The position numbers were made by a program, and so were the translations under genes. The notes beneath the pieces were generated by a model. That model had not been told where the DNA came from, did no database searches, and was given only the letters and a program-made list of their open reading frames with translations. This document shows, one piece after another, positions 6,610 to 23,030 of a stretch of 51,835 nucleotides of DNA (position 1 is the stretch's first letter; every line of letters starts with the position of its first letter). This DNA comes from a virus: the IMG/VR virus record IMGVR_UViG_3300029319_000079, positions 1 to 51,835 of that record; one strand, written 5' to 3'.

Positions 6610-6617
6610 TATCTCTC

Positions 6618-7925: not shown

Positions 7926-8343
7926 CTTCGGAGGCCACTTCATAGTCTTGCAACATCTGTGCGTATAAGAAGTATTGTTCTTGTGCCCACAAATGTAAAC
8001 CAACACCAAGTCTGGAAGCAGCTCTTTTAAGTGCGTCTGATTCCATTTCCTTAATTTGGTCTCCGATATCTTTATTATTGTTTTGGTCTGTACCTATACC
8101 AGTAACTTTGACTGGTTGACCGTCGACAGAAACAGTGATTGTTCCTTTAACAGCACAAGGTATATTATCAGAATAAATTACTTCTGTATCCCAATTAAAT
8201 GGTCCACAGACTTGCAAGATTCTCTGAGCAACCACAGAGTGATTTACATAATCTTCTGTATGTGTTCCCTTTTTAATTTGACTGACTAGTTTGTCGGGAA
8301 ACTTACGAGCAAGTCTAATCAGTTGCATTGGCTTGTCTGCCAT
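7915..8343 (-). CDS. Rad52/Sak-type single-strand annealing protein
   Basis: A 142-aa protein matching the compact Rad52/Rad22-like phage annealases: the YVNHSVVAQRILQVCGPFNWDTEV core, then KGTITVSVDG, then IKEMESDALKRAASRLGVGLHLW (about 95-115), a diagnostic segment. It anneals complementary ssDNA in phage recombination, with SSB in the same operon. The ATG at 8343 has GAGAGA upstream inside the previous gene. Confidence 0.85.
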   Translation of the reverse strand: MADKPMQLIRLARKFPDKLVSQIKKGTHTEDYVNHSVVAQRILQVCGPFNWDTEVIYSDNIPCAVKGTITVSVDGQPVKVTGIGTDQNNNKDIGDQIKEMESDALKRAASRLGVGLHLWAQEQYFLYAQMLQDYEVASEDVR

Positions 8344-9284: not shown

Positions 9285-9307
9285 ATCATAATTTATATTT
9301 TTTATAC

Positions 9308-9313: not shown

Positions 9314-9319
9314 TAATAT

Positions 9320-11388: not shown

Positions 11389-11416
11389 TCTGTACAAAAA
11401 TTATTTAAAAATAAAC

Positions 11417-11445
11417 TTGACAAAAGAATAGTTATATGGTATAGT
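11417..11445 (+). promoter_or_regulatory. Promoter of a non-coding transcript
   Basis: TTGACA (11417-11422), 17 bp, TATAGT (11440-11445). No ORF follows until 11824, so it probably makes an RNA. Confidence 0.7.
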
Positions 11446-11451
11446 TATACT

Positions 11452-11560
11452 ATACAAAACAATATAACACGTTTTGCCATATAGTTGGCGTAGGTTCGCT
11501 CCCTTCGATTGCGGCAGGGGAGGGGACCAAAAACAAAAGAAACCAAAAAAAATTTTAAAA
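11452..11560 (+). ncRNA. Candidate small RNA
   Basis: The sequence downstream of the promoter is locally GC-rich in an AT-rich setting and can fold GGT...CTCCC (from about 11492) with GGGAG...ACC. It has no credible ORF. The 3' end is unclear; an A-rich tract and then the CGGAGG repeats follow. Confidence 0.4.
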
Positions 11561-11581
11561 ACCCAAAGCCAAAATTTTTCT

Positions 11582-11670
11582 CGGAGGTTTTTTCGACCCT
11601 CATAATGCGTCTCCGGAGGTTTATTCAGCATCCATAATGCGTGACGGAGGTTTTTAGCAGCATCATAATG
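11582..11670 (+). repeat. Three tandem CGGAGG...AATG elements
   Basis: Copies start at 11582, 11614 and 11645 (period 31-32 nt). Each reads CGGAGGTTT, about 13 variable bases and T-AATG-CG, with 21 nt from the first G of GGAGG to AATG in all copies. Single or paired copies recur at 15935, 17558, 20440 and 20472. Confidence 0.85.
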
Positions 11671-11767
11671 CGTCCCATCATTATTTTGAAATACAACATT
11701 ACATATATATGTATATAGAGCTGTATAAATCTATAGTATTACTTTAGATAAAATTTGGATTAAATAT

Positions 11768-11796
11768 TTGACATAATTAAAAATGTGTGAGATGGT
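11768..11796 (+). promoter_or_regulatory. Promoter for gene 11824-12057
   Basis: TTGACA (11768-11773), 17 bp, GATGGT (11791-11796). The leader AACAAACAAGGAAGG supplies the ribosome site. Confidence 0.65.
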
Positions 11797-11823
11797 ATAT
11801 ATAACAAACAAGGAAGGATATTT

Positions 11824-12057
11824 ATGGATATAAATATTGCTAAACAATTACTAGGCAGACAGTTCGACAAAGAGAACGAACACGGTGAGTATGAGTTCGC
11901 TATGCATTTAGGGGAGCTACTTACTGAGCCAACAGGTGAGGATGACATCACTGCTGAGGCTTACGACTTTCCTATCTTCTTTGATAGAGAGGGTGATGCT
12001 TGGGCAAGTGTGGAATATATATTAAAAAATATTCAACATATATACTTGACAAAATAA
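11824..12057 (+). CDS. Acidic small protein (77 aa)
   Basis: The product starts MDINIAKQLLGRQFDKENEHG and is rich in Asp/Glu. I do not recognise a family. It has its own promoter and ribosome site. The next promoter (12046-12074) lies across its stop codon. Confidence 0.7.
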   Translation: MDINIAKQLLGRQFDKENEHGEYEFAMHLGELLTEPTGEDDITAEAYDFPIFFDREGDAWASVEYILKNIQHIYLTK

Positions 12058-12074
12058 AGATTATATGAGATAGT
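12046..12074 (+). promoter_or_regulatory. Promoter of the 12080-12560 RNA
   Basis: TTGACA (12046-12051), 17 bp, GATAGT (12069-12074), overlapping the end of the upstream gene. No ORF with a ribosome site follows for 500 nt. Confidence 0.75.
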
Positions 12075-12079
12075 ATATA

Positions 12080-12560
12080 TAACGGCTTTTTGACAACAGA
12101 ATAAAGATAGATGATTTGATTGAGGGTTACTACTGAGACCGTAAAGTGTTCAGAGTATCGAAAAGAAATCACTTGCTTCAGACACGATATAGACCACGAG
12201 GCTTCCTAGGATGCTGACTGAAGACTAGCGTCACTCGAAGTCCAATATGAGCTTATCGAAACTACCTGCACAGGTTTGTCCTCGAAAGGGGAAGTTGCAA
12301 CTAAATCGGTGGGAACGCTCAATCAAGTCATTTATCCAAAGGTTTAACTATCTAAGTAGTAGGGTGTGATTAGGGGCATTGGGATTGTTCAAATTAATTG
12401 CCTAGTTGAGTTAACTAAATACTAGGACAACCATACTAACGGTCATAGCAATCGGTCACTTAGACCGAGCCTTGAATATAACAGAGGTGTCGAAACCTCA
12501 AATAGCGAATGAGTAGGCGAAACGAAAATGTTGCGGTTATATTTGTATACTACTTGGATA
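12080..12560 (+). ncRNA. Candidate large structured RNA (about 480 nt)
   Basis: The sequence has no convincing gene but many local helices: TCCTC-GAAA-GGGGA (12279-12292), CCTAGT/ACTAGG (12401-12406 with 12421-12426), TCGGTC/GACCGA (12452-12468), GAGGT/ACCTC (12484-12499). A closing 8-bp stem AATATAAC/GTTATATT (12475-12482 with 12536-12543) encloses the last of these. It has a dedicated promoter. It could be a GOLLD/ROOL-like giant RNA or a new class; a group I intron was considered but its core is not evident. Confidence 0.6.
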
Positions 12561-12578
12561 CTTAAATCTTTGGAATGA

Positions 12579-12608
12579 TTTGACATTATTTCAATTATAT
12601 GAGATAAT
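12579..12608 (+). promoter_or_regulatory. Promoter for gene 12616-12774, leaderless
   Basis: TTGACA (12579-12584), 18 bp, GATAAT (12603-12608). The ATG at 12616 is at the expected transcription start. Confidence 0.7.
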
Positions 12609-12615
12609 TATATTA

Positions 12616-12774
12616 ATGGAAATGCAAACACTAAATAAATACGAGAGGGTTTACTCTTGGCTTATCAACGAGCTAGAGCTAAACAAAATCAATCATCCTT
12701 CAGAGGATGTGCGAGGCTGGTTGGCTATGCTTCAAGAGAGCCTTGAATACAACCTCTCAAAATTTGAGGACTAA
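12616..12774 (+). CDS. Small hypothetical protein (52 aa)
   Basis: A helical, amphipathic protein (NKYERVYSWLINELEL). The start was set at 12616 because the longer frame opening at 12580 would begin inside the -35 box. The function is unknown. Confidence 0.65.
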   Translation: MEMQTLNKYERVYSWLINELELNKINHPSEDVRGWLAMLQESLEYNLSKFED

Positions 12775-12834
12775 GGTCTTCGGGGTTTGTAAGCACCTGT
12801 CAACAGAAGCTTACAGCCGCAAGGCTACAAACAG
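12773..12834 (+). ncRNA. Intercistronic hairpin element, copy 1
   Basis: The layout is GTCTTCGGGG, then GTAAGC (12789-12794), AC, CTGTCAACAG (12797-12806), AA, GCTTAC (12809-12814). A second hairpin follows (AGCCGCAAGGCT), then ACAAACAGAAAGG. The same architecture with a different but complementary 6-bp stem is at 18354-18392. Confidence 0.65.
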
Positions 12835-12875
12835 AAAGGCAATATTATCAACTATTAACTAAGCCGAAAGGCAGA

Positions 12876-12959
12876 ATGGGGGTTAAGTTGCTCTTATTAC
12901 TTAAACTTCTTCTTGAAGGTCAAGAAGACGAACAGAGTAATGATTCTGACGAAAGTTAG
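12876..12959 (+). CDS. Very small protein (27 aa), Leu-rich then acidic
   Basis: The peptide is MGVKLLLLLKLLLEGQED followed by an acidic Ser/Asp/Glu tail. A short hydrophobic helix could associate with membrane. AAAGG lies upstream. Its position between a structured leader and the gene at 13016 is the only other support. Confidence 0.4.
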   Translation: MGVKLLLLLKLLLEGQEDEQSNDSDES

Positions 12960-13015
12960 AGTCAAGCCCTACAGAGATGTAGGGTAAGTAAATCAAAACA
13001 GATTGGGGAATGATT

Positions 13016-13363
13016 ATGTTTAGAATCTTAGAAGAAGACGAAAAGCATTTTGATGATACTGAAGGTGTGACTTGTATTTACGGCATCTTTATGTTCATTG
13101 ATAGCGAACAAGAATTATTAGAAGAAATATTTGAAGTTAAATCTGCAACTGAATTAAAAGACTTTAGTTTCAGAAGTAGGCTGTTTGTTTCTTTTGATGA
13201 AGCAAATAGTATATTCCAGACTTTTGATGCTGGTTCTGTGGAACAAGCTGAGGAATTTTTGTTGGAACATATTTTCTTAAAAGAAGATTACAACGACTTA
13301 AATGAAACTCAAAAGTTTTTATACAACAGCTTACAAGTAGAAGAAAGATTGGAGACAGTATGA
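13016..13363 (+). CDS. Acidic hypothetical protein (115 aa)
   Basis: I chose the ATG at 13016 because GGGGA is 6-7 nt upstream; an ATG at 13010 is in frame. The product is rich in Glu/Asp/Phe with no known motif. A CCCTAC/GTAGGG hairpin precedes it. It overlaps the next gene by 4 nt (ATGA), so the two are probably coupled. Confidence 0.65.
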   Translation: MFRILEEDEKHFDDTEGVTCIYGIFMFIDSEQELLEEIFEVKSATELKDFSFRSRLFVSFDEANSIFQTFDAGSVEQAEEFLLEHIFLKEDYNDLNETQKFLYNSLQVEERLETV

Positions 13364-13542
13364 GTGACTGGACAGTTGCAGAACTAGTTGATGCAATACA
13401 GTATATAAGCGATAAGAAAAGTGTAAATATTTATCTTATGCCCAAAGACCACGAGAAAGAATATGAGCGTTTAGACATACACGCTGTAGGACTTGGTGAG
13501 GTCACTGGGGACAGCTTAGATATATTTGTTGAAAAAGCTTGA
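13360..13542 (+). CDS. Small hypothetical protein (60 aa)
   Basis: A compact alpha/beta-looking product (MSDWTVAELVDAIQYI, then SVNIYLMP). Unknown family. It is coupled to the upstream gene by ATGA, and its end overlaps the -35 of the next promoter. Confidence 0.65.
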   Translation: MSDWTVAELVDAIQYISDKKSVNIYLMPKDHEKEYERLDIHAVGLGEVTGDSLDIFVEKA

Positions 13543-13567
13543 CAAATATCTAAGTATGTGAGATAAT
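13539..13567 (+). promoter_or_regulatory. Promoter
   Basis: TTGACA (13539-13544), 17 bp, GATAAT (13562-13567), with leader AACAAACAAACAGAAAGG. Confidence 0.8.
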
Positions 13568-13597
13568 AAATATAACAAACAAACAGAAAGGTATATT

Positions 13598-13762
13598 GTG
13601 AAAACAAAAATATATACAGTTGAAAATATTGGTTATTTCTATTACAACATAGAAGCAACTAGCGAACAAGAAGCTATTGATAAGCTTCAAGGCTCTATTT
13701 TAGACCACGACCAATTTGAAATGGACACTAATCCAACAGTGGTGGAGGTATGTGATGCGTAA
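13598..13762 (+). CDS. Small hypothetical protein (54 aa), GTG start
   Basis: GTG follows AGAAAGG at 10 nt. The product (KIYTVENIGYFYYNIEATSEQEAIDKLQ) has the beta-beta-alpha look of small phage proteins in which a SEQEAI-type helix follows two strands. The function is unknown. It overlaps the next start by 8 nt. Confidence 0.65.
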   Translation: MKTKIYTVENIGYFYYNIEATSEQEAIDKLQGSILDHDQFEMDTNPTVVEVCDA

Positions 13763-14069
13763 GGAATTATGGGACATAGCTTGTGATAGATGGGACGAAG
13801 ATGACGCTAAGGCGTTATACAAAGTCTTTTCAGACTATTATGACGATGAACACTGGGACGAATTCTGTTCTTTGGCGTTTATCGGCACAGATAGAGACGT
13901 TGATGACTTTATCTTCGATGAATTTATTGAAAGATATGAAGTCGATGAGAGTATTGAGTTCTACCTTGACAGAGACAGAATTGTCTCTGACTGGGGCATT
14001 GATTACAAAAGAGAAGAAGTCACTACAGACGAAGGCTACACAAGAACCGTCGTTTGTAGGGAATTTTAG
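13755..14069 (+). CDS. Very acidic hypothetical protein (104 aa)
   Basis: About a third of residues are Asp or Glu, as in DNA-mimic proteins, though no family is recognised. The start at 13755 was chosen for the GGTGGAGGT ribosome site 4 nt upstream; the longer frame from 13716 has none. An acidic anti-host or DNA-mimic role is speculation. Confidence 0.65.
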   Translation: MRKELWDIACDRWDEDDAKALYKVFSDYYDDEHWDEFCSLAFIGTDRDVDDFIFDEFIERYEVDESIEFYLDRDRIVSDWGIDYKREEVTTDEGYTRTVVCREF

Positions 14070-14081
14070 ATTGGGGGAACA

Positions 14082-14351
14082 ATGGAAGACATTACAGTAG
14101 ATTACGAGTTAAAAAACGCTCTTAGTTTTAATGACAAAGAGTATTTAGCAAGACAATGGGCAATTGTATTACTTGATGGTTATTACAAAGACCAGATTGA
14201 TATCTTTGCAGGTTATATTGCTGATGCTTGGTCTCACGAAGGCAGTGGCGTTGAAAGATTTGAAGAAGATGTCAATGACTTACTTGATGATGCAGAGATG
14301 GGTGAAACTATCTTAAACTTTCTTAAGTTTGCACTTGACAAAAATAAGTAA
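14082..14351 (+). CDS. Acidic hypothetical protein (89 aa)
   Basis: A helical, acidic product with GYYKDQIDIFAGYIADAW in the middle. Unknown family. GGGGG precedes the start by 3 nt. It is the third gene of the unit driven from 13539, and its 3' end contains the next promoter's -35. Confidence 0.65.
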   Translation: MEDITVDYELKNALSFNDKEYLARQWAIVLLDGYYKDQIDIFAGYIADAWSHEGSGVERFEEDVNDLLDDAEMGETILNFLKFALDKNK

Positions 14352-14363
14352 GCGTGGTATAGT
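14335..14363 (+). promoter_or_regulatory. Promoter for the Api92-like gene
   Basis: TTGACA (14335-14340), 17 bp, TATAGT (14358-14363), then AACAAACAGAAAGG. Confidence 0.8.
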
Positions 14364-14389
14364 TAATATAACAAACAGAAAGGAATATT

Positions 14390-15046
14390 ATGCCCAACTG
14401 GAGCAGAAATAGAATAACAATGTATGAAAATTATGAGCTTGATAGCACTGATTTTTATAAGAACAAAGAAGGCAAACACGCCATAACTGACATTTATGAG
14501 CAGTTTGTTAAGGACATTACAGTAGTAAATAAAGAAGGTAAGGAATATTACAACCTTATGGAAGTAAATCCTACACCAGAAATACTTAGTAAGGTTCACG
14601 CAAGTAGCCCACCATACCTTGTCAGAGACAGGAAAACAGGTGAGTTTGTTTCTCAAAGTGTATGGGATATGGAAACAGAGGACAGGAACTTGTTCTATGA
14701 TACCAATACTCACCCAAAGCTTGAGAAAGTAGAAATTGTGGAAGGCACAGACATCTACAACGAACTTATAGAAAAGTATGGATGCCTTTCTTGGTATGAC
14801 TGGAATGTCAAAAACTGGGGAACTAAGTGGGAAATTACACTAGACAAAAGTGAAATCTCATTTGATGAGTATAACTTACAGTTCTATTGTGATAGTGCTT
14901 GGTGTCCACCAGAAGTATTACTACAAGACATTGCTGACAAATACAATGTCAATGTAGAGTGCTTCTACGAGATAGAAGGATATGGTAATGATGGCGTAGG
15001 TAAAGATACTTACGAGCCAGCTTCTTCACTAGAAGTAGAAGTCTAA
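14390..15046 (+). CDS. Api92-like / DUF1281-type ferredoxin-like protein
   Basis: The N-terminus MPNWSRNRITMY resembles the PNWxxN start of Api92-like phage proteins. The family's other landmarks follow: NLMEVNPTPEIL (about 55-66), YDWNVKNWGTKW (about 137-148) and FYCDSAWCPPEVL (about 165-177). The family is widespread in phages and plasmids; its function is not established. It has its own promoter and a strong ribosome site. Confidence 0.85.
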   Translation: MPNWSRNRITMYENYELDSTDFYKNKEGKHAITDIYEQFVKDITVVNKEGKEYYNLMEVNPTPEILSKVHASSPPYLVRDRKTGEFVSQSVWDMETEDRNLFYDTNTHPKLEKVEIVEGTDIYNELIEKYGCLSWYDWNVKNWGTKWEITLDKSEISFDEYNLQFYCDSAWCPPEVLLQDIADKYNVNVECFYEIEGYGNDGVGKDTYEPASSLEVEV

Positions 15047-15049
15047 CAA

Positions 15050-15310
15050 TTGAATAAAGCTAATTACTGACCAGATATTGTGTAGTGATGCACAAGATAA
15101 TCGGATAATGTGGCCTAATTAACCACACCTTTGATGGAGGAAATAGAAACGCAACGGTTTCCATCACGCAGGTCGGTAGGTAGCTTGTAGCACATAGGTA
15201 AAATACGTTTGTAATCAGTCGCTCTGAGAAAACTTACTGTGTGCTACAAGCTATGTAGGGCTGGAGGCTTACGCCGAGGACTACCACGGGCTTGCCCGTT
15301 GCCCTTGATA
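15050..15310 (+). ncRNA. Structured 3' region or RNA (about 260 nt)
   Basis: No ORF. Helices include TGATGGA/TCCATCA (15132-15138 with 15160-15166) and a perfect 14-bp stem (15181-15194 with 15240-15253). There is also ACGGG-CTTG-CCCGT (15286-15299), a stable CUUG tetraloop hairpin. It is probably read from the 14335 promoter as a 3' UTR, or released as a separate RNA. Its class is unknown. Confidence 0.55.
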
Positions 15311-15332
15311 GCAAAATAATTTATAAATTGAC

Positions 15333-15360
15333 TTGACTTATATTAGTTATGTGATATAAT
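15333..15360 (+). promoter_or_regulatory. Promoter of the 15367-15880 RNA
   Basis: TTGACT (15333-15338), 16 bp, TATAAT (15355-15360) with extended TATGTGA. No coding start follows. Confidence 0.75.
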
Positions 15361-15366
15361 TAGTAT

Positions 15367-15880
15367 AAGAAAGGTTGAGATAGCAGTGTAAAGCTATCGA
15401 AGCACTCACTAGGTGAAGATGCAGTATGCAGCTGTAGTAGCAATCGATGGACTTAGTAAGGAAGAATTAGACTAGGACAGAATAACTGGGGGAATAATTC
15501 TTAGACCCAGCCGCAAGCTGGAATGCATCTAAGATATGGAGGAGCCTTTACCATCGGGTAGAGAAAAAGGCGGACCCGGCTAGGAGATGAAGCAGCAATG
15601 CTTGCCAGTGTAAACCAAGTGGACAGGTGAGAGCCCTTCCCGCAACCGTGAGGTTGTTGAACTTGCAATAAGAGTTCTATAAGAGGTAACTGGATTGTGA
15701 CCGCCACCGTTATCCTACGAGTTGACCGAAAATGGAAGTCTAAGTAAACACAGTGAACTTCTTCTGGGGTGTATCAGACGAGTATTCGTTGGGGGTAACG
15801 ATGTACCCAGCGTCGAAAGTTTGTTCGATAGTTTTACACTGTTATCAAGCAATGAAGCTGGACCAGTGGTTTTTTAAGTC
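15367..15880 (+). ncRNA. Candidate large structured RNA (about 510 nt) with its own promoter and terminator
   Basis: The sequence is gene-free and G-rich relative to its surroundings. Helices include GATAGC/GCTATC (15379-15398), CCAGC/GCTGG, GCCTTT/AAAGGC (15544-15571) and AAGCA-GCAA-TGCTT (15590-15603). Further ones are CAACC-GTGA-GGTTG (15643-15656), GGGTA/TACCC (15793-15808) and TCGAA/TTCGA. It ends at CACTG/CAGTG plus a T6 run (15837-15875), a plausible terminator. GNRA loops and repeated junctions suggest an ornate RNA such as GOLLD or ROOL, or something new. Confidence 0.65.
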
Positions 15881-15934
15881 GCTGCTTCTGCAGCTGCCTT
15901 TCTTGTTTGGGCTGCTGGTACAGCACAGAATCGT

Positions 15935-15960
15935 CGGAGGTTTTTACAGACATCATAATG
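15935..15960 (+). repeat. CGGAGG...AATG element, copy 4
   Basis: The spacing is identical to the 11582 copies. Here GGAGGT can also pair with ACCTCC just after AATG. Confidence 0.8.
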
Positions 15961-16023
15961 ACCTCCCAATATTTCACGGACAAAATCTAAACCAAAACTC
16001 TAGATATTTTTTTATTATTTGAC

Positions 16024-16052
16024 TTGCTTTTTTTTATATGATGTGATATAGT
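16024..16052 (+). promoter_or_regulatory. Promoter for gene 16087-16290
   Basis: TTGCTT (16024-16029), 17 bp, TATAGT (16047-16052), then CAAACAAACACAGAAAGG. Confidence 0.65.
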
Positions 16053-16086
16053 ATATATATCAAACAAACACAGAAAGGTTAAAAAA

Positions 16087-16290
16087 ATGGCTGATTGGAA
16101 AATTGAATTAGCTGGTAAAGAATACCAACTACATTATCTAAATGACTTGGCTGATAGTCAAGCAACTGAACTCTATGAGTTGTTAAAAGAACTTATAGAG
16201 ACAGATTGGAATAACTATGCAATGCAGGACAATTACAGATTATATATCTGTGAAGTAGAAAGAGTTCTGGGTTCTAGAGGATTGTTGTAA
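16087..16290 (+). CDS. Small hypothetical protein (67 aa)
   Basis: MADWKIELAGKEYQLHYL, then an acidic helix. Unknown family. It is a monocistronic unit between two promoters with a good ribosome site. Confidence 0.65.
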   Translation: MADWKIELAGKEYQLHYLNDLADSQATELYELLKELIETDWNNYAMQDNYRLYICEVERVLGSRGLL

Positions 16291-16308
16291 AAAAACCTAT
16301 ATCATAAT

Positions 16309-16336
16309 TTGACAAATATAAAAGCTGTGATATAAT
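16309..16336 (+). promoter_or_regulatory. Promoter
   Basis: TTGACA (16309-16314), 16 bp, TATAAT (16331-16336), leader ACAAGAAAGGAAG. Confidence 0.8.
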
Positions 16337-16359
16337 GTATATATACAAGAAAGGAAGTT

Positions 16360-16680
16360 ATGCAACTATTAACTAAAGAGATACTAAATAAAACACCAGA
16401 CATTAGCGATGGTGAAACTAAACCAGAGCAGGTTAAAATTACGGCTAAGTTTTTTGACCCGACAGGTTCATTTACTTGGTATCTAACTGAAATTGATAAA
16501 AGTAATAACGATACTTGTTTTGGATTTGTGACAAGCGAATTTTGTCCAGATGGTGAACTTGGTTACTTTACAATAAGTGAGCTAGAGGAGACTAAAGGAC
16601 GTTTTGGCTTGGGTATAGAACGAGACAAGTTCTGGACTAGCAAAACATTAAAAGAAGTTATGGATAGTGTGGGTTATTAA
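16360..16680 (+). CDS. Hypothetical protein (106 aa)
   Basis: The central KFFDPTGSFTWYLTEIDK and FGFVTSEFCPDGELGYFTISEL segments resemble the DUF2958-type phage/plasmid fold (FDP-G-WTWY, then G-ELGYF-L-EL). This is a recognisable small family of unknown function found with antirestriction-type genes. It is the first of three coupled genes. Confidence 0.75.
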   Translation: MQLLTKEILNKTPDISDGETKPEQVKITAKFFDPTGSFTWYLTEIDKSNNDTCFGFVTSEFCPDGELGYFTISELEETKGRFGLGIERDKFWTSKTLKEVMDSVGY

Positions 16681-16709
16681 CCCACACACCATACAAAATT
16701 GGAGGAATA

Positions 16710-16883
16710 ATGGAAATTGTTGATAAAGAACATATTGAGGCATTAATGTCTAGAGTTAAAACTCTAAATGAAGAACTTGATTATTTGAGAAAAGTAAATG
16801 AGATTTTGTGGTCTTATCTACCTGAAAGTGATTATGAAATTAATGAAAGAATATCTAAAGAGATAGATGAGGTGGAGGAATAA
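16710..16883 (+). CDS. Coiled-coil mini-protein (57 aa)
   Basis: Heptad-like Leu/Ile spacing over residues 8-35 suggests a short coiled coil, with an acidic tail. The GGAGGA ribosome site is 4 nt before the ATG, and the stop overlaps the next start as TAATG. The function is unknown. Confidence 0.65.
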   Translation: MEIVDKEHIEALMSRVKTLNEELDYLRKVNEILWSYLPESDYEINERISKEIDEVEE

Positions 16884-17170
16884 TGAAACTAAAAGAATTA
16901 ATAGCAGAGTTAGAACATTTTAATAATAATGGACACTTTGATGAGATAGATGACATAGGAGATTTAGAGTTGTCATTTAAATTAATGGTTAAAAATACGG
17001 ATTTACAAGATGATGATATATGGGATATTGACTTGTCTAAACCAGAGATTATCTGTTCAACAGGAAATTTCTTTGTTGAATTTGGTATGACAGCAGAAAG
17101 CAACATACCTAATAAAAGTGATTATGTATATTACTTTAAAGATGTTCACCCAAATGAATTTGATAAATAG
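16883..17170 (+). CDS. Acidic hypothetical protein (95 aa)
   Basis: Starts MKLKELIAELEHFNNNGHFD, then an Asp-rich middle. Unknown family. It is translated from GGTGGAGG in the end of the previous gene. Confidence 0.65.
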   Translation: MKLKELIAELEHFNNNGHFDEIDDIGDLELSFKLMVKNTDLQDDDIWDIDLSKPEIICSTGNFFVEFGMTAESNIPNKSDYVYYFKDVHPNEFDK

Positions 17171-17172
17171 AT

Positions 17173-17201
17173 TTGACAAGATAAGAAAGGTATGATATAG
17201 T
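17173..17201 (+). promoter_or_regulatory. Promoter for the KTSC gene
   Basis: TTGACA (17173-17178), 17 bp, TATAGT (17196-17201). Confidence 0.8.
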
Positions 17202-17230
17202 TATAACATACCAAACAAAAAGGAGGTAAT

Positions 17231-17506
17231 GTGAAAGCATTATTTACAATAAACAAAGTAGCTAGAACAAACAGTTCTATGATTGCTTTTATAAAATATA
17301 ACAAGATTACTAAAAGATTAGTAGTTTGCTTTAGTCAAGGGGCTATGTATTCATATACAAATGTTCCTAGACAATATGCGAATATGTTGTTTATGGCTAA
17401 TAAAAACGGCTTATCTGTAGGTAAAGTCTTTATAGCTTTGATAAAAGACAATAAGGATATTCCTTATATGGCTTTAGGACAAGCTGAATTAGAATATAAA
17501 ATTTAA
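17231..17506 (+). CDS. KTSC-domain protein (91 aa), GTG start
   Basis: The sequence fits the KTSC fold: SSMIAFIKYN (about 15-24), then LVVCFSQGAMYSYTNVP (about 31-47), ending with SVGKVFIALIKD. The domain is common at the ends of lysyl-tRNA synthetases and in small phage proteins and is thought to bind RNA or nucleic acid, though proof is limited. AAAGGAGG precedes GTG. Confidence 0.8.
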   Translation: MKALFTINKVARTNSSMIAFIKYNKITKRLVVCFSQGAMYSYTNVPRQYANMLFMANKNGLSVGKVFIALIKDNKDIPYMALGQAELEYKI

Positions 17507-17511
17507 TCATC

Positions 17512-17547
17512 GGCCATAAGGGTTTTGGTAATTTTTACCTTATGGCC
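17512..17547 (+). terminator. Hairpin after the KTSC gene
   Basis: A perfect 10-bp stem GGCCATAAGG/CCTTATGGCC with a 16-nt loop. Only a weak T stretch follows, so it may be a terminator or a 3' stabiliser. Confidence 0.6.
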
Positions 17548-17557
17548 TTAGATTTAA

Positions 17558-17583
17558 CGGAGGTTTTTCGTGGTCTCTTAATG
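17558..17583 (+). repeat. CGGAGG...AATG element, copy 5
   Basis: Same 25-nt geometry. In this copy the variable part forms CGTGGTCTC/GAGGCCACG around AATG. Confidence 0.8.
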
Positions 17584-17607
17584 AGGCCACGGAGCCAACG
17601 GAGAAAG

Positions 17608-17691
17608 TATTTTGTAGCATATAACACTTATTGCAATAAGTAAAAAACAGTAACCTTAATGGCTAAGTTGTATGTTACAAAATATTTTTTT
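17608..17691 (+). terminator. Large-loop terminator-like structure
   Basis: TATTTTGTA (17608-17616) pairs with TACAAAATA (17676-17684), followed by a T7 run. An inner hairpin ACTTAT-TGCA-ATAAGT lies in the loop. It could end the KTSC transcript. Confidence 0.55.
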
Positions 17692-17701
17692 AAAAATAAG
17701 C

Positions 17702-17730
17702 TTGACAAAGTTTTAAAAGTATGAGATACT
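17702..17730 (+). promoter_or_regulatory. Promoter of a long structured leader
   Basis: TTGACA (17702-17707), 17 bp, GATACT (17725-17730). Confidence 0.75.
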
Positions 17731-17736
17731 TATATT

Positions 17737-18051
17737 AACAACAAAGAAAGAAGGATTTGAGAGTAAAGTTCCACAATGAGTAATGACTTATAAATGGATA
17801 CTCGCTCTACTCTCAAAGTTTGGGCTAACTGTGGTCTTTAAAGTTTCGAAACCTGTCGCACAGGGAAGAACGCTTGCAGTTAGCTACAAACAAAAGCTAC
17901 CGACAGGGAGCAGGGATTAACGGAGCCGTGTAAGTATCTGGAGAGGTGGGATAACGAACCCATAACTTATAAACCTCTTAATAACCAGAGGATAAACGGA
18001 AAGTTAATTTATCGGACTCCCAAAGTAGCTTACAAACAACAGGGAGAAAAA
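17737..18051 (+). ncRNA. Structured leader or RNA (about 315 nt)
   Basis: No ORF with a ribosome site. Helices: TTGAGAGTA/TACTCTCAA (17757-17765 with 17808-17816) enclosing GAGTA/TACTC, and GCTAACTG/CAGTTAGC (17824-17831 with 17877-17884) enclosing CCTGT-CGC-ACAGG. AGAGGT/ACCTCT and TGGG/CCCA follow. It runs into the ribosome site of the gene at 18052, so it could be a 5' regulatory RNA or a separate RNA. Confidence 0.55.
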
Positions 18052-18180
18052 ATGGAAAATATAAATTATGAATTAATCGGAGCTATATTTATCTCTATTA
18101 TGGCCGTAAGGTTTGCTTGGGATTTTATGCTTTGGGTTGAAAAATGGATTGATAAGTTTTCAAAAATATTTAATAAATAA
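18052..18180 (+). CDS. Small membrane protein (42 aa)
   Basis: One hydrophobic span (LIGAIFISIMAVRFAWDFML) is followed by a basic amphipathic tail. GGGAG precedes the ATG by 5 nt. It is preceded by the 315-nt structured leader. A holin-like or membrane-signal role is possible but unsupported. Confidence 0.6.
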   Translation: MENINYELIGAIFISIMAVRFAWDFMLWVEKWIDKFSKIFNK

Positions 18181-18182
18181 AC

Positions 18183-18211
18183 TTGACAAACTTTCAAACA
18201 TATGAGATACT
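18183..18211 (+). promoter_or_regulatory. Promoter, leaderless
   Basis: TTGACA (18183-18188), 17 bp, GATACT (18206-18211). The ATG at 18218 coincides with the expected +1, and no ribosome site exists. Confidence 0.75.
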
Positions 18212-18217
18212 AATATT

Positions 18218-18349
18218 ATGAAAACAAAAAATACACAAGGGGTTCTAGTACAAGAATTCACTAATACTAAAGTGGCTTGTACTTGTGGCCGTGGTAACAC
18301 ACACTTCCACAATAGTGGTAAGGGAGTTATCATAACACCTTTAGCTTAG
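18218..18349 (+). CDS. Small Cys/His protein (43 aa)
   Basis: CTCGRGNTHFH (residues 21-31) offers Cys and His ligands for one metal ion. The rest is unrecognised. The transcript is predicted to be leaderless from 18183-18211. Confidence 0.6.
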   Translation: MKTKNTQGVLVQEFTNTKVACTCGRGNTHFHNSGKGVIITPLA

Positions 18350-18353
18350 AATA

Positions 18354-18392
18354 AGTCTCGGGCTCCGTGGGTAGCTGTCAACAGAAACCCAC
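18354..18392 (+). ncRNA. Intercistronic hairpin element, copy 2
   Basis: The layout is GTCTCGGGCTCC, then GTGGGT (18367-18372), AG, CTGTCAACAG (18375-18384), AA, ACCCAC (18387-18392), ACAAACA. The core is identical to copy 1 at 12789-12814, while all mismatched stem positions are compensated. A TCGATA/TATCGA hairpin follows just before the next ribosome site. Confidence 0.65.
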
Positions 18393-18445
18393 AAACAACC
18401 TTCGATAAAAAAAACGGATGAAGAGAAACTATCGAAAGGTTAAAA

Positions 18446-18601
18446 ATGTTAGATACTACATTTAACAAATTCAATACTTGTCCTTATTGTGAAGAACAAT
18501 TAGACAAGCATTACAACAACAAAAAAATATTCTCACCAATTTACAACTCTATCGTAAATGTTTGCGAATTTTGTTGGTCAAATATGGATTTAGAGGATTA
18601 A
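18446..18601 (+). CDS. Zinc-ribbon mini-protein (51 aa)
   Basis: Two knuckles, CPYC (12-15) and CEFC (40-43), 24 residues apart, make a treble-clef or zinc-ribbon likely. GAAAGG precedes the start. It may bind nucleic acid or host protein; the target is unknown. Confidence 0.65.
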   Translation: MLDTTFNKFNTCPYCEEQLDKHYNNKKIFSPIYNSIVNVCEFCWSNMDLED

Positions 18602-18717
18602 ACCTCTAAGTCCGTATTCGAACATATGTTCGATAAATCGGAGAAGCTCCCACGGAGAAGTTGCTCCCACGGAGAAGTCCGACGGAGCGGCTACCCACTA
18701 TATCTAGTGGGCTCCGT

Positions 18718-18861
18718 TCAAACAACTATATATAGTTGGTTATTTTTTTCTAGTAGTTCCAAATCGGTGATATGTCCGAGAAAATCTCTCATCTCATCAT
18801 CTCCGTAAACATTCTCCGTTTCTTTATCTACTTTTGTATCTTTTGTATTTATTAATTTCAT
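18718..18861 (-). CDS. Small acidic protein (47 aa), antisense orientation, leaderless
   Basis: The minus-strand ORF MKLINTKDTKVDKETEN...DFLGHITDLELLEKNN starts 6 nt from its own GATAAT box. Its 3' end overlaps the plus-strand hairpin at 18723-18738. It is the only minus gene in this part. Unknown family. Confidence 0.5.
   Translation of the reverse strand: MKLINTKDTKVDKETENVYGDDEMRDFLGHITDLELLEKNNQLYIVV
18723..18749 (+). terminator. Palindromic hairpin with T-run
   Basis: A 16-nt perfect palindrome (CAACTATA and its complement) is followed within 5 nt by T7. It probably terminates the rightward unit ending at 18601. A second hairpin CCCACTA/TAGTGGG lies just upstream. Confidence 0.65.
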
Positions 18862-18867
18862 ATAAGT

Positions 18868-18895
18868 ATTATCTCACATTATTTATATTTGTCAA
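18868..18895 (-). promoter_or_regulatory. Leftward promoter, leaderless
   Basis: On the minus strand TTGACA (18890-18895), 16 bp, GATAAT (18868-18873). The ATG at 18861 is at +1. Confidence 0.7.
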
Positions 18896-18927
18896 GGAAT
18901 AAAATAAAAAATTATTTATAAATAAGC

Positions 18928-18956
18928 TTGACATAATTTCTATATAGTGATATAGT
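18928..18956 (+). promoter_or_regulatory. Promoter of the ArdC unit
   Basis: TTGACA (18928-18933), 17 bp, TATAGT (18951-18956). The first ATG (18963) lies 6 nt downstream. Confidence 0.75.
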
Positions 18957-18962
18957 AATAAT

Positions 18963-19040
18963 ATGATAAGAACAAACAAAGAACTAGACAAAAAAACCAG
19001 AAGGCTAGATGCCTTCGCTACAAACAAGAAGGGAAAATAA
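18963..19040 (+). CDS. Leaderless 25-aa leader peptide before ArdC
   Basis: MIRTNKELDKKTRRLDAFATNKKGK, a basic peptide that begins at the predicted +1 and ends 1 nt before the ArdC ATG. Its 3' half contains a GAAGGC/GCCTTC hairpin and the ArdC ribosome site. It could couple ribosome entry to ArdC translation. Confidence 0.45.
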   Translation: MIRTNKELDKKTRRLDAFATNKKGK

Positions 19041-19041
19041 T

Positions 19042-19944
19042 ATGAATAAAGATAGAGTTCAAGACTTAACAAACTTGATTGATGAAAAAATCGAAGCTTT
19101 GATTAATTCAAATGACTGGAAAGAATATCTAAAATTTGCTTCGGCACAATATAGATACAGTTGGAATAATCAATTTTTGATTTGGTTTCAATCTTCTGTA
19201 AGGGGTTTTGAAGCTACATATGTGCGTGGTTACAAGCAATGGGAAGCTATAGACAGAACAGTCAAAGCTGGTGAAAAAGCTATGTATGTTTTAGCACCGA
19301 TGTTGGCTCACAGATGTATTGAAAAAGATTGTAAAGCTAGAGCAAAATATTTTCGTGATGGTAAATATTATATTTGCGAAAAAGATAGCAATCACAAAGT
19401 TGGTAAATTCTTAACTGGGTTTAAAGATGTACCAGTCTTTGATATCTCACAAACAGAAGGCGAAGACATTCCACAAATTACTTTAAAGGATAAGTGCGAA
19501 AATGCTAAGCCAGAAATTTGGGATGCGTTGGTCTCACTAGCCGAAAGTTATGATTTCAAAGTTATTATTGGTAATGCAAAAGGTGCCGAAGGGTATTGTT
19601 CACACGATAAAAAAGAAATTGTTATTAGTAGAAATGCAGACTTTGGTTATCAAGTGAAAATATTAGCTCACGAAGTTGGTCATCTATTAATGCACAAAGA
19701 CATTACAGACTACCAACAACAAAGGGCAAGATATGAAACCGAAGCCGAAGGCGTGGCGTGGGTTGTATGTGAAGCCCTAGGCGTTCATAGTGCCGAAGAT
19801 AACTACAGCTTTGGTTACATTGCAACGTGGGGTAAAGATAACACTAAAGCATTAGTGAAGCAATCATTACAAACCATTACTAAGACCAGCCAAACAATTT
19901 TAGATTTTGTTGAAGCTAGGGTGGATGGGTTGGTCAAGGCGTAA
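19042..19944 (+). CDS. ardC: ArdC-like antirestriction protein with zincin metallopeptidase
   Basis: The N-terminal ArdC ssDNA-binding domain (about residues 1-130) includes YSWNNQFLIWFQ and VRGYKQWEAIDRTVKAGEKA. The C-terminal zincin domain has HEVGH at about residue 214 and a downstream glutamate in ETEAEGVAWVV. ArdC proteins protect incoming DNA from host restriction. I set the start at 19042 (AAGAAGGG upstream) and not 19009. Host defence evasion early in infection is the likely role. Confidence 0.9.
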   Translation: MNKDRVQDLTNLIDEKIEALINSNDWKEYLKFASAQYRYSWNNQFLIWFQSSVRGFEATYVRGYKQWEAIDRTVKAGEKAMYVLAPMLAHRCIEKDCKARAKYFRDGKYYICEKDSNHKVGKFLTGFKDVPVFDISQTEGEDIPQITLKDKCENAKPEIWDALVSLAESYDFKVIIGNAKGAEGYCSHDKKEIVISRNADFGYQVKILAHEVGHLLMHKDITDYQQQRARYETEAEGVAWVVCEALGVHSAEDNYSFGYIATWGKDNTKALVKQSLQTITKTSQTILDFVEARVDGLVKA

Positions 19945-19983
19945 AGCCTTGACTAGCTCAAGAAAAAAAACTTTATTTTTGAC

Positions 19984-20012
19984 TTGACAAGATTTAAAAG
20001 AGATGGTAATAT
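19984..20012 (+). promoter_or_regulatory. Promoter, leaderless
   Basis: TTGACA (19984-19989), 17 bp, TAATAT (20007-20012). The ATG at 20019 is at +1. Confidence 0.7.
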
Positions 20013-20018
20013 TATAGT

Positions 20019-20144
20019 ATGAGAAAATGCAAATGCAGAAAAATATTCTGGTCTCCGATGGGAGCACCACTCTGCGGAGAGTGCCTACGGAGAGAGCTCT
20101 ACGGAGCTCCGGCCGGAGAAAGGAAAGAAGCTTATGCAAAATAA
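20019..20144 (+). CDS. Cys-rich mini-protein (41 aa)
   Basis: MRKCKCRKIFWSPMGAPLCGECLRREL gives a CxC...CxxC zinc-ribbon-like unit. Codons are unusually GC-rich and contain repeated CGGAG/CTCCG blocks. It overlaps the next gene by 11 nt. A metal-binding regulator is possible. Confidence 0.55.
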   Translation: MRKCKCRKIFWSPMGAPLCGECLRRELYGAPAGERKEAYAK

Positions 20145-20412
20145 TTTAGTAAAATTGTGGAACCAAGTTCCACTAAATTTAAGAGACAGACTTGATATGG
20201 GTAGGAAGGTCAACGGTGACTATTCTGTTCATAAGGGTGGATATAGGCCTCTTAGGAAGATTGGTAAGTTCGTTAAGAACCATATCCCAATGGAACTAAG
20301 AGACGAGTTCATCCAAGAGTTCGTCACTAAAGATTTAGATTATTTTAACTCTAAATATAAAGAAGGTAGAAGGGGCAAGAGCAACAATCGTGATTGGTTC
20401 GGCCCAATCTAA
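20134..20412 (+). CDS. Basic hypothetical protein (92 aa)
   Basis: A basic protein (GRKVNGDYSVHKGGYRPLRKIGKFVKNH) of unknown function, with AGAAAGGAAAG upstream inside the previous ORF. It is probably co-translated with the Cys-rich mini-protein. Confidence 0.65.
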   Translation: MQNNLVKLWNQVPLNLRDRLDMGRKVNGDYSVHKGGYRPLRKIGKFVKNHIPMELRDEFIQEFVTKDLDYFNSKYKEGRRGKSNNRDWFGPI

Positions 20413-20439
20413 ACCTAAACTTTAGATGTAGATTTCCTT

Positions 20440-20497
20440 CGGAGGTTTTTAGGCCAAGCCTAATGAACCTTCGGAGGTTTTCTTATGTTGTCTAATG
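20440..20497 (+). repeat. CGGAGG...AATG elements, copies 6 and 7
   Basis: Two copies in tandem (20440 and 20472, period 32) with the same internal spacing as the others. They follow the stop of gene 20134-20412. Confidence 0.85.
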
Positions 20498-20504
20498 AGG
20501 CCAA

Positions 20505-20690
20505 AAACTTTTATCTAGAGTTTTACTTTAGATTTTAAAATTAGAACATTTGTTCGATTTGTGAAAATTTTCACAAGCGGAGTATCGGACTTCCCCATAT
20601 GTGCATATGAGCAATTTACAAATCTAAACAATTACTTTAGATTTTCTAAGACGTTCTCCGCACATTTTGAAAGCTTTGTCAAGTATATAA
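20505..20690. other. Non-coding stretch with palindromes and CTTTAGATTT repeats
   Basis: Contains GAACATTTGTTC (20544-20555), an 18-nt perfect palindrome TTGTGAAAA/TTTTCACAA (20559-20576) and CATATG repeated across TG. Repeated ACTTTAGATTT words occur near 20526 and 20632. No ORF. It is a candidate operator or protein-binding region. Confidence 0.5.
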
Positions 20691-20723
20691 ATATATTCTT
20701 TCATTAATTGTTTACTTAGTCAA

Positions 20724-20935
20724 AGAGTTCTGCTTTAATTAATAGTAAGAACTCTGAAGGTTAATTAAAAACAGTGTTTCGTCAATACTCAGCTCGGTTC
20801 AATGTGGTAGCCAGTCTATCGGTTAGCATCAAAGTTTTTCTAGTTAACAACTAACTAAAAACTAGAACTCTGTTTATAGAGTGTAAGACATACTCAGTGT
20901 GGCTTACATAGTATAAACAAATTACAGAAAGGATT
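20724..20935 (+). ncRNA. Structured leader of gene 20942-21301
   Basis: AGAGTTCT/AGAACTCT (20724-20731 with 20748-20755), TTCTAGTT/AACTAGAA (20838-20867), and GTTTATA/TATAAAC (20872-20918) enclosing GTAAG/CTTAC. It ends at the ribosome site CAGAAAGG. It may be a regulatory 5' UTR; no separate promoter is obvious. Confidence 0.5.
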
Positions 20936-20941
20936 TTTCAA

Positions 20942-21301
20942 ATGAGAAATCAAAACGAAACAATACACAATGGCTCAGTTATTTTTAAGCCAACTGTGAC
21001 TAAAAAAGATGCTGTTCCAGTATCTAAATCAAATATACAAGCACAGACACCACAAGCTAAGAAGAGCACTTATGAGCTATTCTTAAGCCCACTGTCTGAT
21101 AAAGCTGGGTATATTAAAGAGTGGAAAAAACAGCCACCAGTTTATAGAAAGCAAAGCAAAGCTCAAATCAAAGCTGGTGCAAAAAAATCTGTTCTTTATC
21201 CAGCTAGTTGGTATATTTCATATACACCAATTTCTAAATACAAAAAAGCTCAGCAAACCGCTGAGCTTTTTCTAAAGGAAATGGAAATACAGAACAGCTG
21301 A
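20942..21301 (+). CDS. Basic hypothetical protein (119 aa)
   Basis: Low-complexity, Lys/Gln/Pro-rich N-terminus, then a basic segment KAQIKAGAKKSVLYPASWYISYTP. Unknown family. It is preceded by a 200-nt structured leader, and a terminator-like hairpin lies inside its last codons. Confidence 0.65.
   Translation: MRNQNETIHNGSVIFKPTVTKKDAVPVSKSNIQAQTPQAKKSTYELFLSPLSDKAGYIKEWKKQPPVYRKQSKAQIKAGAKKSVLYPASWYISYTPISKYKKAQQTAELFLKEMEIQNS
21245..21271 (+). terminator. Terminator-like hairpin inside a coding sequence
   Basis: A perfect 10-bp stem AAAGCTCAGC/GCTGAGCTTT with a 5-nt loop and T5 at its 3' edge, about 30 nt before the stop of gene 20942-21301. Confidence 0.6.
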
Positions 21302-21373
21302 GCTGATAGCTTAGAGCCAATTCAAATTGAGTTGGCTCAAAGGTATTAGACAAACGAGAAAGGAATACCAAAG

Positions 21374-21526
21374 ATGATTACAGATTATCAAAAATTTTCG
21401 GAGCCTTTGTTAATTGGTAAATGGAAAAATAATATTCCAAATCAATTTCCAAAGACTTCTGAAATTGGCTTAAGATTAAGCGATAATAAAAAGCACGAAG
21501 TTAAAATTATTCAGCTTAAAAAATAA
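21374..21526 (+). CDS. Small hypothetical protein (50 aa)
   Basis: MITDYQKFSEPLLIGKWKNN..., unknown. AGAAAGGAA lies 9 nt upstream. A GAGCCAA/TTGGCTC hairpin separates it from the preceding gene, and a GCCCCAC/GTGGGGC hairpin follows it. Confidence 0.55.
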   Translation: MITDYQKFSEPLLIGKWKNNIPNQFPKTSEIGLRLSDNKKHEVKIIQLKK

Positions 21527-21543
21527 AGCTTAGAATTTTATCA

Positions 21544-21566
21544 GCCCCACATAATCAAAGTGGGGC
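21544..21566 (+). terminator. Hairpin after gene 21374-21526
   Basis: GCCCCAC (21544-21550) pairs with GTGGGGC (21560-21566). No T-run, so termination is uncertain. Confidence 0.45.
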
Positions 21567-21784
21567 AGGTAAAAAATCGCTAAGCAAGAAGCAAATGGGC
21601 GGCAGCGGAGCATCACGCAAAAATGTTAATTTTTCGGTTTTTTCTTAAAAACTCTTACAGTCTTATTTATATAGGGTAGGGGCCTATTTTCTTAGATTTT
21701 TGACTTTTTCACATAAATACAACTTTGTGAAATTTTTTTTGACAAAAAATATCTAAAACGCAACCATTTGCAAAAGCGTCTGCA

Positions 21785-21898
21785 TCAGTTGCAACATTCG
21801 TCGCACTCGTGTGCAATAACACACTCATTACATACTTGATTATCGATTATTTCTAATAGACTGCGTAGCTCGGCACCGCATAATTTGCATTTGTACAT
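21785..21898 (-). CDS. Cys-rich zinc-binding mini-protein (37 aa)
   Basis: CKLC (4-7) and CNEC (23-26) plus a terminal ECDECC give a classic zinc-ribbon layout in 37 residues. It stands alone on the minus strand, with a TATATA-containing stretch before the ATG. The Cys pattern is the main evidence. Confidence 0.55.
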   Translation of the reverse strand: MYKCKLCGAELRSLLEIIDNQVCNECVIAHECDECCN

Positions 21899-22025
21899 AC
21901 TGTATATATAGAGCAAGAGTTTCTCAAAACTACCCCTTATTGACCCTTTTTTTTGTAAAAATCTGTGGTTTTTTGCAGGGCAATATTGACAGATGACATT
22001 TTAAAATCGTTGCAAAAGTATATGC

Positions 22026-22031
22026 TAGAAT
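22026..22031 (+). promoter_or_regulatory. Extended -10 of the terminase small subunit
   Basis: TATGC-TAGAAT (-10 at 22026-22031). The ATG at 22040 is near +1 and lacks a ribosome site. Confidence 0.5.
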
Positions 22032-22039
22032 ATTACTAT

Positions 22040-22438
22040 ATGAGTGAAATGGGAAGACCATCAAAGCTAAATGCTGAGCTAATCAAGAATATACAGAATT
22101 GGCTCAGAATGGGCTATTTTGTTGAGGATGCAGCAAGAATGGCTGGTGTAAATAAGGTAACTTTATACCGTTGGCTTGATAAAGGAAGAGAAGATAGAGA
22201 GCAGGAAATAGACAGTTTATACGCTGACTTTTGCAACGCTATGGAGCGTGCTAGAGCAGAAGCAGAGGGTATGTTTATCAACTCAATTCAGACTGCTGCA
22301 AAGCGTGGTCAATGGCAGGCTGCAGCTTGGTGGCTAGAGCGTTCTTTTGATAAATGGTCAAAACCTTCTAAGCTACAGATATCTGGAGATGAGGAAGAAC
22401 CTGTTAATATCAAAATCAAATATTCTGGAGATAAATAG
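22040..22438 (+). CDS. terS: Terminase small subunit-like protein
   Basis: MSEMGRPSKLNAELIKNI, then a helix-turn-helix (FVEDAARMAGVNKVTLYRWL, about residues 27-46), a coiled-coil-like RARAEAEG segment and an oligomer-type C-terminus. This is the layout of small terminase subunits and related DNA-binding phage proteins. I set the start at 22040 from the -10 box; 22049 is possible. It would recognise the packaging site. The large subunit is 5.7 kb downstream, unusually far. Confidence 0.75.
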   Translation: MSEMGRPSKLNAELIKNIQNWLRMGYFVEDAARMAGVNKVTLYRWLDKGREDREQEIDSLYADFCNAMERARAEAEGMFINSIQTAAKRGQWQAAAWWLERSFDKWSKPSKLQISGDEEEPVNIKIKYSGDK

Positions 22439-22754
22439 GCGTAGAGTTGGATTCCCCGCCGCTCCTAATGTTTTCGTTGTAATCTCATCTGTCATCACCT
22501 TTTTATTGATTGGTAAAAATTGGTAATTTTAGAAAAAATACTCTTTTGGTTGTTTTTAGGCTCTGCCTTCTTACTACACCTTTACTTGTTATTCAGTAAG
22601 GGGTTGTTGGAGAGGTTTTAAAGCCGAGCTTTTCCAAAAAATTTCGACGCCTCTGGGCTTTATATGATAAGGGTATATTGATTCCCCCGCCGGCCTTTCC
22701 GGGCACCCCAAAACCGTTAGGCTTTAGGGTACATACCGACAGAAAGGAGGCTAA
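22439..22754. other. Non-coding stretch with GC-rich direct repeats (cos/pac candidate)
   Basis: Two tracts share GATTCCCC(C)GCCG (22450 and 22680) and are the most GC-rich in the region. The second continues into CCGG-CCTTT-CCGG. No supported ORF. The position right after terS suits a packaging site, but this is inference. Confidence 0.4.
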
Positions 22755-22814
22755 ATGTTGTTTGTGATAAACAACTGTTTTAGCTTACTTTTATTCTACC
22801 ACCACTATATGTAG
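22755..22814 (+). CDS. Possible 19-aa leader peptide
   Basis: MLFVINNCFSLLLFYHHYM with an excellent ribosome site (AGAAAGGAGG, 4 nt). It overlaps a TTGTTT/AAACAA hairpin and ends inside the first iteron. It could be a real micro-peptide or an attenuator leader. Confidence 0.35.
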   Translation: MLFVINNCFSLLLFYHHYM

Positions 22815-22960
22815 TAGTACACTATTTATACTACCTATATCTGGTAGTTCGTTATTTATACTACTATATGTTGCGTAGTTCAAGAGATATACTACGGTAG
22901 TTCATTAAATAGACTACGGTAGTTCAAATCGTATACCACCGTAGTTCACCAGTTATACTA
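22796..22960. repeat. Iteron-like array of dyad repeats
   Basis: Units pair ATACTAC with GTAGTTC. Starts lie at 22828, 22858, 22889, 22911, 22933 and 22955 (spacing 30, 31, 22, 22, 22), with a related dyad at 22796. The 22-bp units have half-sites almost touching (ACTACGGTAGT); the longer units have an 8-9 bp insert. The regularity suits a replication origin, partition site or packaging-protein site. Confidence 0.8.
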
Positions 22961-23030
22961 AAACTATAAGCATTAACTATACCTATTAACTAAAAGCATA
23001 TAACTAAAGAAAGAGAGTATGATTTAAAAT

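Follow-up and report, generated by a model that had tools for sequence, protein, structure and literature searches.

A dyad array joined to AT-rich 13-mers as a candidate iteron-type replication origin at the inner end of a probable long inverted repeat in tailed phages

The origin of phage lambda is built from dyad iterons, spaced at steps of approximately 20 to 24 bp, beside an AT-rich region, and is found inside the gene for its initiator, O. Iteron theta origins, i.e., those of RK2, R6K, pPS10, F, and P1, combine tandem sites of about 17 to 22 bp that lie in helical phase with an adjoining AT-rich unwinding element containing tandem 13-mers, and with a winged-helix initiator that is supplied in cis. 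Iterons are described as 17 to 22 bp in length, and the RK2 unwinding element as having four 13-mers (PMC4980987). At the level of whole genomes, both chloroplasts and herpes simplex virus (HSV) possess two unique regions which are split by a long inverted repeat and which occur in both orientations, with HSV in addition carrying a functional repeat element, the a sequence, at its repeat/unique boundary. Phages Mu and P1 (Gin/Cin) similarly have a segment, of 3 to 4 kb, that is seen in both orientations between inverted repeats.

Considered here is a dyad array from what will be called the window, that is, the whole of a 51.8-kb phage record from IMG/VR (IMGVR_UViG_3300029319_000079; 51,835 nt). 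The array is housed in a non-coding stretch of approximately 600 bp that follows the gene for the terminase small subunit (TerS), and lies some 360 bp downstream of that gene. GTAGT half-sites start at positions 22814, 22844, 22875, 22897, 22919, and 22941, i.e., at the steps of 30, 31, 22, 22, and 22 bp which a first-pass annotation had described. Partner ACTAC half-sites alternate with these, beginning at 22830, 22860, 22891, and 22913, with right arms then degenerating to ACCAC at 22935 and to ACTAA at 22957. Four perfect GTAGT-N11-ACTAC dyads lie inside about 105 bp, and no further such dyad is found elsewhere in the window, even allowing one mismatch. Upon dinucleotide-preserving shuffling of the whole 51.8 kb, counting dyads of any 5-nt-arm sequence with gaps of 0 to 14, none of 100 shuffles gave more than two dyads of the same kind within 200 bp, versus the four observed. 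Tandem Repeats Finder independently detects 22804-22869 (period 30) and 22875-22960 (period 22). The array, that is, is confirmed as real, far exceeding chance. Its signal resides in identical repeated half-sites; base autocorrelation and the total count of short palindromes in the region are both indistinguishable from shuffles. The + strand RNA of the region folds only mildly better than do shuffles (z -2.0), and Rfam yields nothing above threshold for it. Strict constant-step chains of perfect dyads were tried as well, and these are too short due to the two degenerate right arms.

Two types of dyad can be distinguished, described here as A and B. The 8-9 bp by which the longer units had been said to exceed the shorter ones turn out to represent a second dyad type, A (ACYACTATATGTAGT), which has a TATAT centre and is conserved in relatives. 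B-type dyads, starting at 22875, 22897, 22919, and 22941, follow one another as tandem short sites in helical phase (22, 22, and 22 bp), with the degenerate right arms being those of the third and fourth. This spacing is kept in relatives that employ other letters, and the B-type dyads may represent initiator sites.

Directly abutting the dyads is an element that the first-pass annotation had overlooked, which Tandem Repeats Finder reports at 22962-23006 with a period of 13 and 3.4 copies. These AT-rich 13/14-mers, present in all lineages, join short tandem repetition with low duplex stability: the least stable 100-bp stretch here, which starts at 22952, ranks within the bottom four of the window for stability and is exceeded in instability by only 0.24% of windows, with equal instability seen in other AT-rich intergenic stretches of the window. 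On the other side of the dyads is a conserved leader that also holds either a short hairpin or a tiny, non-conserved ORF. Coordinates are collected in Table 1.

Table 1. Features of the window that bear on the dyad array and its setting
Feature	Position	Strand	Basis or remark
Predicted inverted-repeat arm X, ~11.6 kb	11388..23006	+	left edge by homology to the G010 fork; second arm outside the window
Single-stranded DNA binding protein (SSB)	6124..6645	-	phrog_44, E 4e-14
O/DnaD-like replication initiator, winged helix, 274 aa	7185..8009	-	phrog_270/391/186; HTH_36; predicted model
Rad52/Erf-type single-strand annealing protein	7915..8343	-	Pfam PF04098, E 2e-5; phrog_3290, E 1e-13
TerS, terminase small subunit	22040..22438	+	phrog_4102, E 1.3e-37; upstream of the array in every run-through contig
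Conserved block directly 3' of TerS (TTCCCCGCCG..CCTAATG..TGTAATCTCATCTGTCAT)	22440..22500	+	alignment
Conserved leader: CCCYAAA..TTTAGGG dyad, ACCGACAGAAAGGAGG with Shine-Dalgarno-like run	22713..22790	+	alignment, fold
A-type dyad 1 (ACCACTATATGTAGTAGT)	22801..22818	+	core ACTATATNT, 1-4 copies, identically placed in each lineage examined
A-type dyad 2 / long unit (ACTACCTATATCTGGTAGT)	22830..22848	+	inverted repeat with 6-bp arms; matched in alignment to A-type sites in relatives
A-type dyad 3 / long unit (ACTACTATATGTTGCGTAGT)	22860..22879	+	alignment with relatives
Four B-type dyads, 22-bp steps (GTAGT-N11-ACTAC + 1 nt)	22875..22961	+	proposed initiator iterons
AT-rich 13/14-mer direct repeats (AACTATAAGCATT / AACTATACCTATT / AACTAAAAGCATAT / AACTAA..)	22962..23006	+	proposed DNA unwinding element

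Relatives were gathered by searching with TerS, with the ORF that starts at 23729, with the dyad pattern, and with the terminase large subunit (TerL). Conservation, which had been put forward as a main check on the array, is strong across these relatives. In alignment, close relatives all keep TerS, the conserved block, the CCCYAAA/TTTAGGG dyad, an ACCGACA(G)AAAGGAG leader, A dyads, B dyads, and 13-mers, in that order. The core of this arrangement, i.e., A dyads followed by B dyads at 22-24-bp steps and then by 13/14-mers, persists even at approximately 40% TerS identity. What changes is the lettering of the dyads, which shifts as a set from lineage to lineage. B dyads thus are GTAGT/ACTAC in the window and in G001, G004, G006, and G007; GAACTAC/GGGGTTC in L012-L015; TGAAC/GTTCA in L016-L019; CGACAG/CTGTCG in L267 and L258; and CCTAGG, at steps of about 24 bp, in G014, L277, L279, L285, and their relatives. 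The 13-mers, AACTATACCTATT / AACTATACC, meanwhile are nearly constant. A concerted change of letters with constant spacing is what would be expected of sites for one protein. As half-site drift parallels TerS divergence and initiator divergence alike, however, this co-variation cannot name the binder.

Less related contigs, as recruited via the protein encoded at 6618-7163, offer no 13-mer block for comparison. Contig L038, which matches the bare dyad pattern, is not a relative, though it carries a similar GTAGT/ACTAC dyad array at approximately 1360-1520. Among GTDB genomes there is no relative by TerS, and by TerL the sole match is an Ignavibacterium MAG at 24%. Named phages include no close relative, with every match below 60% identity. 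Two proteins from the late region of G001 (L042, 7755-10517 and 3584-3838), one of 920 aa containing TTTTTTTTLP stretches and the other ferredoxin-like, together hint, from sequence alone, at an actinobacterial host.

All of the records are metagenome contigs, and it is how these contigs start, end, and fork that provides a view of the genome as a whole. The array forms the inner end of a region, X, which carries TerS and which parts an 11-14-kb replication region, E (~1-11.4 kb in the window), from a late region, L, of 50-55 kb. X spans 11,567 bp between both forks in G010. In addition to TerS and the array, X contains the boundary with E, small early genes, and an anti-restriction gene. In the 71.8-kb contig G001, the array is found at 16085-16269, after TerS, and a second, inverted copy closes the far end of L at 71621-71806; these copies, 99.5% identical over 186 bp, flank 55 kb of L. 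Contigs G009 and G010, which derive from two samples, agree at 99.93% identity along 17,567 bp that take in TerS and the array, past which G009 enters the start of L (a 236-aa ORF, then TerL) and G010 the end of L. Exact splits at the array are seen with the pairs L007/L016 (107 nt), L096/L017 (127 nt), L098/L019 (149 nt), and L040/L043 (126 nt). Within a single sample, 3300006916, L241 and G010 have 103 nt in common, beyond which they diverge into L-start versus L-end, i.e., both isomers are present in one population. Both ends of L, that is, join identical TerS-array sequence, and both ends of E join the opposite end of X.

Evidence from the E side is of the same kind. G012 consists of E bounded by 123-nt inverted ends, and at the start of G010, G013, and G014 the E/X border is repeated in inverted form over 80-99 nt. 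G011 has the form X'-E-X, with 5,709-bp arms that are 99.98% identical around a 12-kb E. Those arms end symmetrically and differ at one base, a symmetry that could reflect an assembler having joined one X contig twice. A long inverted repeat about a unique region is found in both G011 and G001, each an assembly rather than a single molecule. What G011 directly shows twice on one contig is a 5.7-kb stretch of X, and nowhere is the full 11.6 kb so repeated. Where 126-127 nt are shared, this is the overlap to be expected from an assembly with k=127, and by our own reading the splits are forks in the assembly graph, which also explain the approximately 20 contigs that begin inside of the array.

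TerS is upstream in all 13 of the run-through contigs selected by TerL as well as in three L-end contigs (16/16). With every run-through contig leading to TerS, and with no recombinase found in the families searched, the simplest reading is a genome of the form E-X-L-X'. This inverted-repeat architecture we hold to be very likely. Two oppositely oriented arrays would then be expected in each genome, which should flip between isomers. A competing possibility, that a site-specific system inverts L at the array in a genome with but one X, is very improbable: the array is indeed located at the inversion junction, but a one-X genome predicts that about half of run-through contigs should lack TerS upstream, E bears its own, different inverted ends, fork positions vary by lineage, and there is no recombinase beside the inverting segment or otherwise among proteins searched (that is, in the families searched, with not every small ORF covered).

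The X arm has other elements of its own. A CGGAGGTTT(TT)-n-TAATG element is present in seven copies, all on the + strand and all within X, at 11582-11674, 15935, 17558, 20440, and 20472, three of these copies being in tandem, at 31-32-bp steps, at the start of X, where relatives carry similar TAATG-ending repeats. Possibly this is a transcript-end or regulatory element. Near-identical, promoter-like CTTGACAAA boxes precede tiny X-arm genes (e.g., at 11415, 12044, 13538, 14333, 17701, and 18181), some then followed by a ACAGAAAGG leader, as though each cassette along the arm were transcribed on its own. Two long, ORF-poor, and comparatively G+C-rich stretches, 12090-12550 and 15050-15450, have no Rfam match and could be structured RNAs or introns. 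The anti-restriction-like protein (19009-19944; phrog_7245) probably is present in two copies per genome.

Genes to the right of the array had been taken to be of a replication type. The ORFs in question (23334-23666, 23729-24439, and 24436-25122) have no Pfam match, however, and at most marginal matches to PHROGs, these being families of unknown function. Replication genes instead sit at 6.1-8.3 kb, where genes for an SSB and a Rad52-type annealing protein neighbour that of an O/DnaD-like initiator with an HTH_36 domain. A low-confidence model of this initiator has a winged helix and a helical C-terminal domain, and Foldseek matches it weakly to DnaD and to 5kbj, a Rep-DNA complex. The recognition helix of the initiator varies between lineages that differ in their dyads. 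This protein is the best candidate for binding the array. No iteron series is found in or beside its gene (7100-9400 scanned). With no polymerase among proteins searched, the phage likely makes use of the host's replication machinery.

Of the three functions suggested in the first-pass annotation, i.e., origin, partition site, or terminase-binding site, it is origin that the anatomy fits best, and we give about an even chance to the array and 13-mers together being an iteron-type replication origin module. Dyads at two-helical-turn steps with three to four abutting AT-rich 13/14-mers amount to iteron-origin anatomy, as with RK2, and the phage resembles iteron theta replicons also in encoding a winged-helix initiator. 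Resemblance to lambda is in dyad iterons by an AT-rich region and an O-like initiator. The single dyad array of the window, none being near the initiator gene, and the encoding of initiator, SSB, and annealing protein are further consistent with this origin reading. By this mechanism, the O/DnaD-like protein would bind the 22-bp dyads as iterons, with that binding melting the neighbouring AT-rich 13-mers, where host helicase would be loaded. There is no GC-skew switch at the array (22.8 kb), skew here being confounded by transcription; the skew minimum is at about 9.2 kb, a site of diverging transcription, and skew computed at fourfold sites is likewise without a clear signal.

Small-terminase sites are frequently in or near terS, and the array invariably follows terS closely. 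TerS, whose N-terminus is HTH-like and whose drift is paralleled by that of the dyads, might be imagined to bind the dyads as a pac site beside its own gene, so that packaging could begin at one or the other inverted copy and proceed into L. That possibility we nevertheless consider unlikely, as it leaves strictly conserved AT-rich 13-mers without a reason, as there is no pile-up of contig ends between TerS and the array such as a cos cut would give, and as those contig ends which do occur at the array are accounted for by assembly forks. The 13-mers go equally unexplained if the dyads instead are operators, at which a phage regulator would control transcription units starting at both ends of L. 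The TATA-centred A-type dyads are operator-like, a conserved leader is immediately upstream, and several lineages have a TTGACA-type promoter and ribosome site after the 13-mers and within the repeat. In G001, however, the repeat stops at the 13-mers and so includes no downstream promoter, and the window lacks the second dyad copy that a regulator with multiple targets would predict, leaving an operator role doubtful.

Partition finds little in its favor. Two ParB-like proteins are encoded, which could bind the array as a centromere, but these are small, match ParB-like/nuclease families rather than canonical ParB, and adjoin a PAPS reductase; one (2135-2677) is 80% identical between lineages with wholly different dyads, and there is no ParA ATPase among proteins searched (not every ORF being covered). 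A partition site thus is hardly probable at all. The PAPS-reductase-like protein and the two ParB-like/nuclease proteins that flank it (2135-5242) are themselves 65-80% conserved in relatives.

Returning to the origin reading, the module as the inner end of X would be present twice, with the two copies opposed, at both ends of L, in a genome that would be circular or circularly permuted, quadripartite (E-X-L-X'), and approximately 85-100 kb. Recombination between X arms, perhaps aided by the Rad52-type protein, which suits such a role, would yield isomers with L (and E) in either orientation. That there exists a widespread group of tailed phages with quadripartite genomes, inverted repeats of ~11.6 kb placing TerS and an origin at each end of L, two opposed origins, and recombination-driven flipping of L and E we put forward tentatively, its chance of being correct in full falling somewhat short of even.

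Differences from the described systems are in part of position. Unlike iteron theta origins, this one repeats a dyad, is remote from the gene for its presumed initiator, and would be found twice, opposed, at the ends of an inverted repeat. As its iterons are outside of the initiator gene, i.e., approximately 15 kb away and after terS, the array is not a lambda-type origin in the strict sense, that of lambda being inside of O. Versus chloroplasts and HSV, these are tailed phages with HK97-type genes, and no relationship is implied. Versus the invertible segments of Mu and P1, what flips is the whole of a late region of about 50-55 kb, the repeat is ~11.6 kb, and no recombinase was found among proteins searched. 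The unusual part is the setting, in which a tailed phage would have two opposed copies of the array, each terminating an arm of a long inverted repeat, and for which no precedent was met in a literature searched mostly as open access, so that absence is not thereby proven.

Forking of assemblies at each end of X, one of these being the array, means that such phages are recovered as broken contigs, with no complete genome among the relatives gathered. If two inverted origins do end L, then replication forks would collide head-on. Recombination furthermore would constantly flip the genome, and headful or cos packaging must then handle the resulting isomers. These phages, if so constituted, would follow a genome plan for which chloroplasts and herpesviruses are the other known cases, and would provide a natural test of how replication, recombination, and packaging are linked in phages.
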